DNA from: Clostridiales bacterium
GTDB lineage: Bacteria > Bacillota > Desulfotomaculia > Desulfotomaculales > VENG01
DNA length: 64,000 nt
NCBI GenBank assembly: GCA_016278505.1
Contig: JADQBQ010000007.1
Span: 1 to 64,000, forward strand
Direction of reading: 5' to 3'
The notes below the pieces were generated by a model. It saw only the letters and a list, made by a program, of their open reading frames with translations, had not been told where the DNA came from and searched no databases. Positions within the stretch are counted from its first letter, which is position 1. Each line of letters starts with the position of its first letter. The translations under genes and the position numbers were made by a program. This document shows positions 21,198-29,810 of the stretch, in pieces.

Positions 21198-22997
21198 CTA
21201 GCTTTTGGGCTTTGTGGACTTTTTGCCTGGTGTCCACTTGACAAACTCTACAACTCCGTACACATCAAGGCGCGCCTCGTTGTGGTTCTTAATTTGGTTT
21301 ATTAGATAATGTTGCTCACCTATTTCCAGGGTTACGTTTTCGTAAGCCTTGGTGAAAAAAACAGACTTATCGGCAGGTACTTTAATGTGGGTGGGAACAC
21401 CTGTTTTTGAGCCCGCCTCGGATAAAGTAACATTATCCCCGGCCTCGATACTGCCCCCGCGAAAGAGGCCCTGCACCATGACTGTCCCTCCGGCTATGAT
21501 CTTTGTTTCAATGCAGCCCTGTCCTGTAATAATAGCATTACCCGTAGCCTCAATGGTACTGTTTAAAGAATAAGGCAGCTGAATATTGGCTTTGTTATCT
21601 GTTAAGAACTCAAGATGGGTTTTGGTTTTATGAACTGCTTCGCTCAGTTCTTTAATGTCCTCAATGCCGGATAGCTCAAGTACCTTAATTCCCCTAAATT
21701 TTTGATTTAAAATGGCGGCGAGAGATTCAATTTCCCTGGGCAGGCTGGCATCCTTAGAGTAAATCTTTAATATGTTATTGATGTTAGACTGGAATGAAGG
21801 AAATCTTTTCTCCATGAGAAGCGCCGTAACTTTGCCAAAGGATGTTTGTCCCTTTAATTGTGCAAAGGTTTGTTTAAGTGCCATTTGCAGCTGGGACATT
21901 AATTGCTCAAGGTCTTCCAACAGGGGCAGTATACGGCTAATGGAAGATATGGCTGCCCCTGCACTAATCTTTGATGCCAGTACATGCCCATTTAGAGTAA
22001 TATGGCTGCCGGAGGTGACGGTGGCGCTGCTTATAAGTCCATCCACCCGTACCTTCCCGTTGCCGGAAACAACCATGTTTTGTTCTATGGTGCCCTTTAT
22101 GTGGACATCTCCCTTAAATCTAATATTGCCTGAATCCAGGTTAACAGAACCGTTGTGTATCATGTTGGGCTGTACCGTAAAATAATAACTATCCTTCCCT
22201 GCCCTTATATCCGGCTGGCCGGCTTTTGTAGCGACTACTTTGGTCTTTTCTTCTATCAGCTCTGTCCCGGGGCCTGCCTGCATTGATATTGTCCGGGGCT
22301 CATTTGGCTTGATGATGTTACCAAAAACATCATGCCCCGGCTCACCCTGAGCGCTCGGCTGCTTAACCGCTAATATATCCCCCTGGTCAACACTGCTGAT
22401 ATTAGATGCACTCTCCCTGTAATCAACTCTACCATCAGCCTTAACGAGCGGCGCAGTTTTTCCTGATGGAATATTTATTTCCACCTTTTCATCCAGAGGC
22501 GGTGTAGGAGCGGTACCGAAAGCAATAAGGACTTTCTTACCGCCTGCAATATCTAAAGTTTCTTTTACTGCCTGTAAATCGGGTTGAACAATCCCTTTCT
22601 TTTTAATTAAGTTTAAAATATCAGCAATACTGTACGGGATTTGTAACTTTGTCTGTTGTTCAGTGGCGAGAACTAGGTTAGGAGTCGGGGGTTGATCCTT
22701 GAGGGAAAAAGTTATTTTAATTTCCGGTTTGATTTCTAAGTATGCTGCCATTTTATCTTTAGATACATCGATGTTAATTTCGGCAGGTGTCAGCTCGGAT
22801 TTCGGCACTGTTTCAATGGTATCATTTTGATTAACCTCAGTCTCTGAATCAATTTGCTCCCCGTTAATTTTAAGAACTATTCCTTCTGCCGCAATAATTT
22901 TTGCGGGTTGTTCTCCCGGAGAGGGATCGAAAATTTTGAGTTTACCGTTCTCTACAGCTGCCAGTCCGGGCTTTGTTTGGTTTATATTCTTTTGCAT
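21198..22997 (-). CDS. FapA/DUF342 family protein
   Basis: About 599 residues, of the FapA (DUF342) family: a mixed N-terminal region, then a central parallel beta-helix built of short polar repeats (about residues 270-370, including GSVNLDSGNIRFKGDV, VRVDGLISSATVTSG, GHVLASKISAG). A coiled-coil insert follows, then a second helix portion (IITGQGCIETKIIAGG, VMVQGLFRGGSIEAGD). Members are polymer-forming or cell-surface-linked proteins; some act in flagellar assembly, others in capsule or spore coats. The ATG at 22997 has AAGGTGG six bases upstream; an in-frame ATG 66 bp further up lacks one. Function here is unknown. Confidence 0.85.
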   Translation of the reverse strand: MQKNINQTKPGLAAVENGKLKIFDPSPGEQPAKIIAAEGIVLKINGEQIDSETEVNQNDTIETVPKSELTPAEINIDVSKDKMAAYLEIKPEIKITFSLKDQPPTPNLVLATEQQTKLQIPYSIADILNLIKKKGIVQPDLQAVKETLDIAGGKKVLIAFGTAPTPPLDEKVEINIPSGKTAPLVKADGRVDYRESASNISSVDQGDILAVKQPSAQGEPGHDVFGNIIKPNEPRTISMQAGPGTELIEEKTKVVATKAGQPDIRAGKDSYYFTVQPNMIHNGSVNLDSGNIRFKGDVHIKGTIEQNMVVSGNGKVRVDGLISSATVTSGSHITLNGHVLASKISAGAAISSISRILPLLEDLEQLMSQLQMALKQTFAQLKGQTSFGKVTALLMEKRFPSFQSNINNILKIYSKDASLPREIESLAAILNQKFRGIKVLELSGIEDIKELSEAVHKTKTHLEFLTDNKANIQLPYSLNSTIEATGNAIITGQGCIETKIIAGGTVMVQGLFRGGSIEAGDNVTLSEAGSKTGVPTHIKVPADKSVFFTKAYENVTLEIGEQHYLINQIKNHNEARLDVYGVVEFVKWTPGKKSTKPKS

Positions 22998-23189
22998 CAG
23001 GACCCACCTTCTCAAGGAAAAATGTCTGAACCATTTCGAGGCTACGTAGCCATTTTCCTGCAAAAACTGTTTTATTTTGTTAAATATTAATCTGCCTGAA
23101 ATAAATCCTATAGAAGGCCGGGTTTCAACAAATGGCCATTATAATTAATTGTAATTTAGCGGTATTTTACTAATAGCCCATTGGCAATA

Positions 23190-23378
23190 TCACTTACCCT
23201 TTTTCAGTTGTTTTCTTTCTTTGAAACACATACAACCTTCCCCGGTTGCCCTGTAAACTTGGACCGATGGGTTATACCTACTTTTTATGCCGTAGCAATG
23301 GCAGCCATTTGGCAAGCTTTTATCCCACGTTACATAAAAATGTTTACATCTAATGCAGTTTTGCCTGGGAATGCTCAT
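23190..23378 (-). CDS. Small Cys-rich conserved protein
   Basis: A 62-residue protein with NCIRCKHFYVTWDKSLPNGC (about residues 7-26), then a CYG pair and a late GEGCMCF. This matches a small conserved family I know from other bacteria, sometimes wrongly called uracil-DNA glycosylase. Six cysteines, including a CxxC at residues 8-11, suggest a zinc or iron-sulfur site. The longer open frame upstream (to 23627) is AT-rich, runs through the c-di-GMP riboswitch on the other strand and should not be counted. GGGG lies about seven bases before the ATG. Confidence 0.72.
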   Translation of the reverse strand: MSIPRQNCIRCKHFYVTWDKSLPNGCHCYGIKSRYNPSVQVYRATGEGCMCFKERKQLKKGK

Positions 23379-23596
23379 AAAATTACCCCGCTTAAATCTA
23401 CGTAAAACACTATGTATGCTATGGTAATGCCTTAAATTAACTAAGCATTGAATATATGGGTTAATATTATCGCGATTATATGCAAATGTAAAGAATATAC
23501 GGGCAACAGGCTTAATCGAACTCAACATCTTATGGTATAATTTTTTACAATAATTAATCTGAATGCAGGAAATGGTCGAGAATGATAGAATGTATG

Positions 23597-23602
23597 TATA
23601 AT
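23597..23602 (+). promoter_or_regulatory. Likely -10 element of the riboswitch transcript
   Basis: TATAAT lies 10-15 bases before the riboswitch aptamer. The -35 region is not a good match. The position suits a transcript starting near 23609. Confidence 0.45.
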
Positions 23603-23614
23603 ATGTATAAATTG

Positions 23615-23700
23615 TAAAAATGGGCAAACCGGCTTAAAAGTCGGGACGCAAAGTTATGGGCCTAAAGCTTTTATGCCATGGTTGCCAGGCTGCTTAAAAA
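23615..23700 (+). promoter_or_regulatory. c-di-GMP-I (GEMM-I) riboswitch
   Basis: The plus strand shows the aptamer landmarks in order: AAAAATGGGCAAACCGGC, a short hairpin loop, the highly conserved GGGACGCAAAG, a second stem starting TATGGGCCTAAAG, then ATGCCATGGTTGCCAGGCTGC closing the structure. These match the GEMM-I consensus, including GGGCAAACC, GACGCAAAG and the tetraloop-receptor pairing region. It is followed within 25 bases by an intrinsic terminator, so it probably controls transcription elongation into the two downstream genes. Whether c-di-GMP turns them on or off cannot be settled by eye. Confidence 0.92.
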
Positions 23701-23719
23701 GAAAGCAAAAGACTTTTGA

Positions 23720-23749
23720 GGCGGCCATTGATTTTGGGTCGCTTTTTTT
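23720..23749 (+). terminator. Riboswitch expression-platform terminator
   Basis: GCGGCC (23721-23726) pairs with GGTCGC across an ATTGATTTTG loop, with one G-U pair, and is followed by seven T residues. It ends about 28 bp before the first gene, the normal place for a riboswitch terminator. Confidence 0.82.
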
Positions 23750-23776
23750 GAATTATTTCAATTTGGTGGTGTGATA

Positions 23777-24109
23777 ATGGATCAGTTTGTTGGCATTTAT
23801 GCTACGCTTATAAGCTATTTCTCCAGCTATTTTGAAATCAAGAGATTAGGTCAATTTCAGTATGTTTCCTTATTCGAAGTAGCTCAATTAGCCAGACCGG
23901 AGGTCAGCTCCCCATTTGATTCCATTGTTATTGAGGAAGTTTATTTGCAGAAAGACAGTGGTGAAAAAATGGTAGTAACCTATGGATGGTATCAGTATGA
24001 CTCCTTAACGCGAACGTTAACGGAAGCGGAAAAGCCGGAAAAACTAGATGATAAAAGAAATTTTTACTCGATGGTTCAGCCTCCTGAAACCACGAAGATA
24101 TATATTTAA
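23777..24109 (+). CDS. Unknown protein under the c-di-GMP riboswitch
   Basis: I do not recognise this 110-residue protein. It has an aromatic-rich N-terminal helix (about residues 1-25: FVGIYATLISYFSSYFEIKR), which may be amphipathic or membrane-peripheral. A mixed beta region with YGWYQYDSLTRTLTEAEKPE follows. The ATG at 23777 has GGTGGT six bases upstream; a GTG two codons earlier is inside the spacing. It ends 10 bp before the HD-domain gene and shares its riboswitch, so it is likely a partner in c-di-GMP signalling or its output. Confidence 0.75.
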   Translation: MDQFVGIYATLISYFSSYFEIKRLGQFQYVSLFEVAQLARPEVSSPFDSIVIEEVYLQKDSGEKMVVTYGWYQYDSLTRTLTEAEKPEKLDDKRNFYSMVQPPETTKIYI

Positions 24110-24119
24110 GGTGTGAGAC

Positions 24120-25220
24120 ATGCGAATAGTTAGAATATCGGACCTGGACAATTACATAGGTAAAGAAGTTGCAAAGCCGCTGCGCCTAAAGGATGGCAGG
24201 ATTTATGTAAATAGCAATATAAGGATCACCAAGGGCAGTGTTAATGCTCTTCAACGTAATATAGATAACCTGGCACACAGGTTTATCACCATCCATACTG
24301 ATGATAGTGAAGATATCGATTTATATGACGACATTATTAGCGATGAGTTAAAATTCGAAGCCAAAGATAAAATTGAAGCCACATTAAAACAATTTTCATC
24401 GCGCAGAACGGAAAGAGTTAAAAAAATGACTAATGAAATTATTAATAACCTCTATTCTAATCCCAATACAATCTTTGGTACTAATATGCTTTTTTTGGCA
24501 GGTGGGGAAGATCATGCGGTACACTGTCTGAATGTAGCTATTTTGTCAGCCATAATGGCCATAAAGGCCGGTTATAACAAGAATGAGCTGGAGAAGATTG
24601 TATTGGGGGCTGCGCTGCACGACATCGGAATGGCCAAGATAGACAAAAGGCTGCTTGATATCAATTATACGTATAATAAAAAAGAAGATTACCTGGAAAT
24701 GCAAAAGCATCCGTTAGAAGGGTACAACCTGGTTAAAAATAAAATAAATGTACTGTCTAAACGAATAATCCTTATGCATCATGTGTGGGAGGACTTCAAT
24801 GCCAGTTACGACAGTGGTATGGACACATACATGTCCTATCCGCATAAGTTGAATAACACTCTGCTTGATGGGCAGTACAAGGATTTAAGTATTAGTATAG
24901 TACAAACAGCCGATGTATTTGAGGCCATGACGAATAAAGAAGCAGGTTACAAGTCCGCAAAGAGTAAAGCCGAAGCCATGGAGTATATACGCTCCATGAA
25001 GTTTGTTCAGTTTGGGGCCGGAGCTGATTATTTAGTGAATTATATAACTCCTTATGATACCGGTACGGAAGTTATCTTAAATAACAGGGAAAAAGCAGTC
25101 GTAATGCGTTATACCAATTTGCCACAAAGGCCTATACTTAAGCTACTAACCGGAGATGACAAGGGAGAAATAATTAATCTTATGGATAAAAAATTCTTAA
25201 CCCTAAAGATAATGAGTTAA
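24120..25220 (+). CDS. HD-GYP-related protein with a degenerate GYP motif
   Basis: A 366-residue HD-domain protein related to c-di-GMP phosphodiesterases. After a DUF3391-like N-terminal region (about residues 1-120), the HD domain shows EDHAVHCLNVAILSAI (about 136-151), GAALHDIGMAKIDKR (about 162-176) and LMHHVWEDF (about 218-226). The canonical HHExxDGxGYP is altered: Glu is replaced and an insertion separates the Asp/Gly part from SYP. The metal-binding HD and HH residues remain. The C-terminus (about 310-366) is a small beta region. Cotranscribed with the preceding gene behind a c-di-GMP riboswitch. Activity could be changed or lost. Confidence 0.85.
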   Translation: MRIVRISDLDNYIGKEVAKPLRLKDGRIYVNSNIRITKGSVNALQRNIDNLAHRFITIHTDDSEDIDLYDDIISDELKFEAKDKIEATLKQFSSRRTERVKKMTNEIINNLYSNPNTIFGTNMLFLAGGEDHAVHCLNVAILSAIMAIKAGYNKNELEKIVLGAALHDIGMAKIDKRLLDINYTYNKKEDYLEMQKHPLEGYNLVKNKINVLSKRIILMHHVWEDFNASYDSGMDTYMSYPHKLNNTLLDGQYKDLSISIVQTADVFEAMTNKEAGYKSAKSKAEAMEYIRSMKFVQFGAGADYLVNYITPYDTGTEVILNNREKAVVMRYTNLPQRPILKLLTGDDKGEIINLMDKKFLTLKIMS

Positions 25221-28373: not shown

Positions 28374-29810
28374 TTAAATGTCCAATTGAGGGTACTTTGC
28401 TTTAATGTCGTTTATCACTTCATCTGCAATCTGCAGCGGTTTGTGCTCGGACAGAATTAATTTGGCTTTTTCTATTGACCTTTGCCGTGCATCCTGGGCA
28501 CCGTTTTTCTCCCAGAGCTTTCTGGACTGCCTGTCGCCAATAGTGGGGTAAAAGAATTCCGACCGGCAGTGCTTCATGGTGTGCGGGTTGGCCAGGAAAT
28601 TACCGCCTGCACCGACACTTCTGATTACTTCCTCGGCCAGTGTTTCCTCGGTAACCTCAATGCCTTTTACTGCCCGCATACAAATGCCAATCATTTCATC
28701 ATCCAGGACCATCTGTTCATAGGAAATAGTGGTACAAAACTCCAAGAATCCGGCAGCGTCATGAATGAAATTAGCTCCTGCCAGCGCAGTAATCATAGCG
28801 GTAGCCATTTTTTCGTATCCTGCCTGCGCATCGGGTAATTTAGAGTCGGACATACCGGCAGTTGCATAAATAGGAATTTCATAATATTGAGCCATTTGTG
28901 CACTGGCAGCATTGATTAAACCCATTTCGATGTTACCGGACAGATAAGACCCGGTTTTCATATCCATGCTGCTGCTTACTGTACCGTAAATAGTGGGAGT
29001 ACCCTTGTTAGTTAACTGGGCTAACACTATCCCGGAAAGTGTTTCAGCATTGGAAATGGCAACTGTGCCGGCAATGGTACTTGGGGCTGTGGCACCGGCT
29101 AAAGGCTCCGCCGGACACACCACCGGTATTCCCTGCCCGGCTACTTCCATCAGCAATCCACCGTAGGTATCATCAATTACCAGCGGGCTCATTACGCATG
29201 TAACCATGGAAACAATGGGACGCTGGCGCAATTTTTCCGGACCACCGGATATTTTTTCCGCAATATCAATTACGCTGCGAATACCGTCAACTGTATAAAC
29301 GCCACCCATAATATGCTTGGAGGTATTAGCCAGTGCCCAAAAAAAACGGTTAACATCAATGTTTTGTACTTCTATATCGTTAGGGTAAAGCGGGAGCATA
29401 AAAAAGTGAATGTTATCAAGAGCATCAACCAGTTTGGCAAAATCTTTCATGTCCTTCCTAACGGTGGGGCGTCTTTCCCCTGTTTCGAGGTCAAGGGCGT
29501 TAAGAACGGTACCTCCTGTTCCAAGGTGTGTTCTCTTGCCTTCGAGAATAAGGTCGTTCTTTTCTTCCCTGCCGCACAATGTAACACGGGAGGGAGCAGA
29601 GGCAATAGCATCCTCCAACATACCCCTGGGTATTTTAACCATCTTAGTTTCCTTGTTCACTTCCGCTCCGTTTTGGGCAAATAACTCCAATGCCTTCTCA
29701 TTGTCGCAGCGAATTCCCGGATTTTGCAAAAGATTTGCACTGGTTTCGTGTACTGCCTTTATGTTTTCATCGGTTAAAGGGCGGTATTGCCCTGCCGTAA
29801 GTCCGCGCAA
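28374..29810 (-). CDS. MttB-family amine methyltransferase without pyrrolysine (copy 1)
   Basis: A 478-residue member of the trimethylamine methyltransferase (MttB) superfamily, a TIM-barrel enzyme that moves a methyl group from a methylated amine to a corrinoid protein. The frame is uninterrupted, so no amber/pyrrolysine codon is used; such members include MtgB (glycine betaine), MtpB (proline betaine) and MtcB (carnitine). Recognisable parts are TGGTVLNALDLETGERR, SKHIMGGVYTVDGI, VVCPAEPLAGATAPST and the C-terminal GAGGNFLANPHTMKHCRSEF. A TTG start has AAGGAGG seven bases upstream. It is followed by mtgA-like and mtgC-like genes. The exact substrate is unknown; a betaine is likely. Confidence 0.88.
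   Translation of the reverse strand: MRGLTAGQYRPLTDENIKAVHETSANLLQNPGIRCDNEKALELFAQNGAEVNKETKMVKIPRGMLEDAIASAPSRVTLCGREEKNDLILEGKRTHLGTGGTVLNALDLETGERRPTVRKDMKDFAKLVDALDNIHFFMLPLYPNDIEVQNIDVNRFFWALANTSKHIMGGVYTVDGIRSVIDIAEKISGGPEKLRQRPIVSMVTCVMSPLVIDDTYGGLLMEVAGQGIPVVCPAEPLAGATAPSTIAGTVAISNAETLSGIVLAQLTNKGTPTIYGTVSSSMDMKTGSYLSGNIEMGLINAASAQMAQYYEIPIYATAGMSDSKLPDAQAGYEKMATAMITALAGANFIHDAAGFLEFCTTISYEQMVLDDEMIGICMRAVKGIEVTEETLAEEVIRSVGAGGNFLANPHTMKHCRSEFFYPTIGDRQSRKLWEKNGAQDARQRSIEKAKLILSEHKPLQIADEVINDIKAKYPQLDI

Follow-up and report, generated by a model that had tools for sequence, protein, structure and literature searches.

A c-di-GMP-I riboswitch predicted to repress an orphan gene and a divergent HD-GYP-lineage gene with a rebuilt active-site loop

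In this study, we analysed a 64,000-nucleotide stretch of a Clostridiales genome (the window; contig JADQBQ010000007.1) in which a c-di-GMP-I riboswitch aptamer and an intrinsic terminator precede two genes, an orphan ORF and a gene for a protein of the HD-GYP lineage (Table 1). With moderate confidence, we propose that the riboswitch is a transcription-termination OFF switch acting on both genes as one operon, and that the second product is a divergent hydrolase derived from HD-GYP proteins. The riboswitch and its setting are ordinary; the genes that it would control are an orphan and one for a rare variant of the HD-GYP proteins. The gene layout, with a 110-residue ORF followed by an HD protein, is as an earlier reading made from the sequence alone (the sequence-only reading) had described it.

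Table 1. Features of the riboswitch-controlled locus and of related leaders in the same genome.
Feature	Position	Strand	Basis and remarks
c-di-GMP-I (GEMM-I) riboswitch aptamer	23613-23697	+	cmscan, RF01051; G20-equivalent 23623
Switching strand	23688-23701	+	3' strand of aptamer helix (23688-23691) and 5' strand of predicted antiterminator
Predicted antiterminator 3' strand	23713-23726	+	folding; 23718-23726 doubles as 5' arm of terminator
Intrinsic terminator	23718-23749	+	stem 23718-23726/23737-23745, U tract 23743-23749; RNA fold -12.0 kcal/mol
Orphan ORF, 110 aa	23777-24109	+	ATG at 23777, SD-like GGTGGTG upstream
HD protein, HD-GYP lineage, 366 aa	24120-25220	+	ATG at 24120; Pfam, alignment, tree
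Altered HHExxDGxGYP loop	24777-24842	+	HHVWEDFNASYDSGMDTYMSYP; alignments; 11 residues beyond canonical length
Antiterminator pairing, C29 leader			GACUGC:GCGGUC, by inspection
Antiterminator pairing, C25 leader			GGUUGCUU:AAGCGGCC, by inspection
Antiterminator pairing, C19 leader			GGUUGCUUAAA:UUUAAGUGGCC, by inspection

The HD protein consists of an N-terminal domain, an HD-GYP-like domain and a C-terminal beta-rich domain. Pfam assigns it to HD (E 3.6e-12) and, barely over the cut-off, to HD_5. Aligned over its length, it is about 24-29% identical to three-part clostridial HD-GYP proteins, and in a midpoint-rooted tree it groups beside them on a long branch (0.8), the nearest forks being modestly supported. 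Descent from ordinary three-part HD-GYP proteins is therefore suggested, with modest support. Size, N- and C-terminal domains and metal ligands are common to the window protein and its canonical counterparts (L012 in genome G056 and L065 in the window genome), from which it differs by 11 additional residues between HH and YP, five additional residues before the last metal Asp, the absence of the GYP triplet and a change of HDIGK to HDIGM. Querying the GTDB contig set with the HD protein gave a single relative (L009:3742-4821, from a Syntrophomonas sp. MAG), which is 43% identical and is the only other protein found with the altered loop. Profile searches of 398 genomes of the phylum and 29 genomes of another class yielded no further member, their nearest matches being canonical, and viral contigs contained no relatives of the HD protein. 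The Syntrophomonas protein keeps HDIGK, has no 110-aa neighbour and is encoded on a 6-kb contig without a c-di-GMP-I aptamer. Since this only close relative is without a riboswitch, the regulatory link is seen once in the altered-loop subfamily. The AlphaFold model of the HD protein (pLDDT 42) was too poor for use.

The active site is changed in a defined way. HHE...GYP is kept in all other displayed homologues except the Syntrophomonas protein, and the HHExxDGxGYP signature is lost from the window protein, in which 18 residues separate H220-H221 from Y240-P241, compared with the canonical seven. An insertion before YP and retained HD residues (H167-D168) had both been noted from the sequence alone, and both were borne out. 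The accompanying statement that the Glu is absent depends on the alignment: no Glu directly follows HH, but Glu224 is found two inserted residues later (HH-VW-E-DF), is paired with the Glu of HHE by MAFFT and is conserved in the Syntrophomonas protein. The "missing" residue may thus be Glu224. The metal ligands listed for PmGH of Persephonella marina do not include the HHE Glu. The metal-ligand motif of HD-GYP enzymes, H...HD...H...HH...D (PMC8177086), is present with all seven ligands (H135, H167, D168, H197, H220, H221 and D265), which are identical in the Syntrophomonas protein. Other positions differ from PmGH. The lysine of HDxGK (PmGH Lys225) is Met171 in the window protein and Lys in its relative, PmGH Asp308 corresponds to Glu268, and the guanine-contact region (PmGH R314/K317) is altered in the window protein and deleted in the relative. 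Both proteins carry an acidic residue four positions before the first ligand (Asp131 before H135 in the window protein), and MAFFT places a gap at the position of PmGH E185, where an acidic residue is the criterion for a trinuclear, PmGH-like site.

The rebuilt loop is conserved between the two proteins. From HH to KLN, 18 of 26 residues are identical (69%), against 135 of 330 elsewhere (41%; Fisher p 0.005, two sequences compared), and the best-conserved 24-residue window of the whole alignment falls on the loop. Because the loop is better conserved than the rest of the protein, this comparison of two sequences argues for selection on the altered loop, and not for its decay. The changed active site claimed by the sequence-only reading is thus real and is shared with one distant relative.

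Most likely, to judge from its ligands, the HD protein would be a hydrolase that depends on metal and acts on a cyclic dinucleotide or pGpG, and its rebuilt lid loop may change access, specificity or partner binding. In PmGH, activity requires the metal ligands and Lys225, and an alanine change at Lys225 abolishes it (PMC4159591). PmGH activity was not much reduced by alanine substitutions in GYP or at R314/K317 (PMC4159591), so an altered GYP loop alone does not equal inactivity. Profile matches of the HD protein to PDB entries were all weak. PmGH (PDB 4mcw/4mdz/4me4) was matched in HD fold and metal ligands (E 4.6e-7), the match ending at the HH motif; Lys225 is missing from the window protein, and the GYP loop and R314/K317 region differ. 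Bd1817, an unconventional HD-GYP protein of Bdellovibrio with a degenerate GYP loop (PDB 3tm8), was matched over residues 64-210 (E 2.8e-6). In Bd1817, which shows no activity on c-di-GMP, the last metal Asp is replaced by Asn, whereas the window protein retains Asp; the match is therefore not decisive for activity.

It is conceivable, though rather unlikely, that the HD protein has no hydrolase activity and serves as a c-di-GMP- or protein-binding effector, a trigger-type regulator made only at low c-di-GMP. Met171 in place of the lysine essential in PmGH, the changed guanine-contact region and the match to the inactive Bd1817 would fit such a role, as would the fact that the GYP loop, which is held to mediate GGDEF contacts, is here both rebuilt and conserved. 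However, two distant members have the same seven HD-GYP metal ligands, the relative keeps the lysine, and the Asp lost from Bd1817 is retained. A little more doubtful is an active hydrolase of another substrate (e.g., 3',3'-cGAMP, pGpG or another nucleotide) for which c-di-GMP only controls expression. HD-GYP enzymes are known to vary in substrate, and the GYP motif is regarded as a determinant of specificity; in the window protein, both the longer HH-to-YP loop and the segment that follows the last metal Asp (changed here, deleted in the relative) lie in the substrate cleft. However, the G20 of the riboswitch is the base to be expected for c-di-GMP.

The aptamer itself is clear. A cmscan of the whole window with Rfam found RF01051 over the full model (1-87) with 67.9 bits and an E value of 3.6e-11, about twice the gathering score of 35. 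A GEMM-I aptamer had been proposed at 23615-23700 from the sequence alone, with a covariance-model search named as the test that could refute it; that search recovered it. Position 11 of the hit is a G, which in our own mapping to Vc2 numbering is equivalent to Vc2 G20, and a preference for c-di-GMP is therefore expected. Aptamers of the cGAMP type are known to carry an A at this position. A cGAMP-bound G20A mutant aptamer has been described (PMC6274999). The promoter scan revealed no prominent sigma-70 promoter upstream of the aptamer on the forward strand. The start of the aptamer is overlapped by a small reverse-strand ORF (23190-23627) with a Cys-rich C-terminal part (CIRCKHFYVTW...) and no Pfam hit. 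Elsewhere in the window, a PYLIS_3 match (28754-28853, reverse strand, 73.1 bits) is located within an MttB-family ORF (28374-29810); no UAG pyrrolysine codon is read in this ORF, as it has no in-frame stop.

Folding located the terminator that the sequence-only reading had placed after the aptamer, with a tract of seven U. It was overlooked by a simple terminator scan, probably since its loop has 10 nt and the scan allows no more than 8. The 14-nt switching strand GGCUGCUUAAAAAG is complementary to CUUUUGAGGCGGCC just downstream, and the resulting antiterminator duplex has a predicted energy of -17.7 kcal/mol, against a shuffle mean of -11.0. As 39 of 2000 shuffles were as low, this test on its own gives moderate support. 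Matching pairings, with compensatory changes, were read by inspection at three other aptamers of the window genome (Table 1). The automatic survey of expression platforms chose wrong hairpins in some leaders, and only directly read pairings were used. In the folding analysis, aptamer and antiterminator both need 23688-23691 and are mutually exclusive, whereas aptamer and terminator are compatible. Riboswitches of the GEMM family act as ON and as OFF switches with similar aptamers (PMC9262584). In the Cd1 OFF switch of Clostridioides difficile, the aptamer can form together with the terminator, and both compete with the antiterminator, whereas the pilM ON switch allows either its aptamer or its terminator but not both (PMC9262584). 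Because 23688-23691 are common to antiterminator and aptamer and the terminator leaves the aptamer intact, we predict a transcriptional OFF switch of the Cd1 type. Cd1 and the window switch have in common the aptamer family, the compatible terminator and an antiterminator drawn from the 3' strand of the aptamer. At low c-di-GMP the antiterminator would form and the operon would be transcribed; at high c-di-GMP the ligand-bound aptamer would hold 23688-23691, the terminator would form and the operon would be off. Cd1 controls a flagellar operon, whereas the window switch, in its predicted direction, controls the orphan and the divergent HD-GYP gene. The minimum-energy fold of the full-length leader is a mixture of parts and no clean switch, and the direction therefore stays a prediction. 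An ON switch, by which c-di-GMP would raise the HD protein and establish negative feedback (homeostasis), is improbable: the mixed fold and the likeness of ON and OFF aptamers would allow it, but the compatibility of aptamer and terminator and the strand shared by aptamer and antiterminator are the OFF arrangement.

That the HD gene is a functionless, decaying HD-GYP copy can hardly be believed, since its long branch and lost lysine are set against an intact frame, gene-like codon usage and an unusual loop that is the best-conserved 24-residue stretch in common with the relative. The 110-aa ORF also looks like a real gene, with a codon-usage score (0.148) within the range of real genes that only one of 60 shadow ORFs reached. 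Its product has no Pfam or NCBIfam match, no relatives in phages, plasmids or viral contigs, and nothing beyond chance level in 398 genomes of the phylum and 113 of the class; a comparison of its structural model (pLDDT 62.7) with known folds yielded nothing significant (best E 0.9). The ORF may be a young gene. A partnership with the HD protein, suggested by the sequence-only reading, is only a guess from adjacency, as no relatives were found and the ORF does not accompany the HD gene of the Syntrophomonas contig. The search for it beside other GEMM riboswitches, suggested in the same place, found it absent next to the 98 other aptamers examined.

Control of HD-GYP genes by c-di-GMP-I riboswitches is routine in the class. 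The riboswitch is present in 97 of 113 genomes, and for 16 of 99 aptamers examined (ten from the window genome, including that of the window itself, and 89 from relatives) an HD-GYP-type ORF starts within 900 bases downstream; these are loci and not independent events, as some are near-duplicates (L082/L135 and L145/L156). The window genome contains ten c-di-GMP-I matches, of which one (in C48) is degenerate and lacks a gene. The others lie before three HD-GYP-type genes (in the window and on C22 and C29), a flagellar operon and genes for chemotaxis receptors and surface proteins, and the 21 GGDEF and 20 HD_5 matches of the genome indicate a c-di-GMP network. A review likewise places GEMM riboswitches upstream of cyclase and phosphodiesterase genes (PMC3971182). 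The idea that c-di-GMP controls an HD-GYP-lineage gene here is well supported, but c-di-GMP governing its own turnover is not new, because the pairing is common in the class and stated in the review.

Several loci of this survey deserve mention in their own right. Six short stand-alone HD-GYP-type proteins (189-251 aa; L041, L084, L157, L161, L164 and L098), encoded right after c-di-GMP-I aptamers, retain HHE and HD and have GY-X-G (X = Y, F, N, S or E) in place of GYP. At L103 (G097), an aptamer lies 87 bases upstream of a three-part HD-GYP gene whose frame is broken before the C-terminal domain, by a frameshift or an assembly error. A degenerate c-di-GMP-I match (G000:C48:107487-107570, L042; 43.7 bits) lacks GACGCAAAG and has a terminator, with no ORF of at least 80 aa listed downstream; it is probably a decayed riboswitch. 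At L104 (G056), the genes downstream of an aptamer, all on its strand, encode a sensor-kinase-like protein, FapA/DUF342, a STAS-like protein, a canonical HD-GYP protein and a PP2C-like protein, and this HD-GYP protein is the nearest same-class relative of the window HD protein. In the window, a FapA gene (21198-23063, reverse strand) is the divergently oriented neighbour. A shared FapA/HD-GYP neighbourhood was seen only in G056 and was too weak to use.

Returning to the proposed OFF switch on the two-gene operon, a hydrolase repressed by c-di-GMP would probably create positive feedback: if the HD protein degrades c-di-GMP, the loop would close on itself and could sharpen the switch between motile and sessile states. 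It is tempting to speculate, albeit tentatively, that the window protein and its Syntrophomonas relative form a small HD-GYP-derived subfamily, in which the changes in the loop and the guanine-contact region would provide a new cyclic-nucleotide specificity or partner surface; its repression by c-di-GMP in the window would then link two signalling activities. The riboswitch is a further example of a known association, now with a predicted sign. If true, c-di-GMP turning off its own possible degrader would be a self-reinforcing switch. In summary, this naturally occurring HD-GYP variant, with its metal ligands intact, its loop rebuilt and conserved and its catalytic lysine lost, is a good test of the poorly understood role of the GYP loop.
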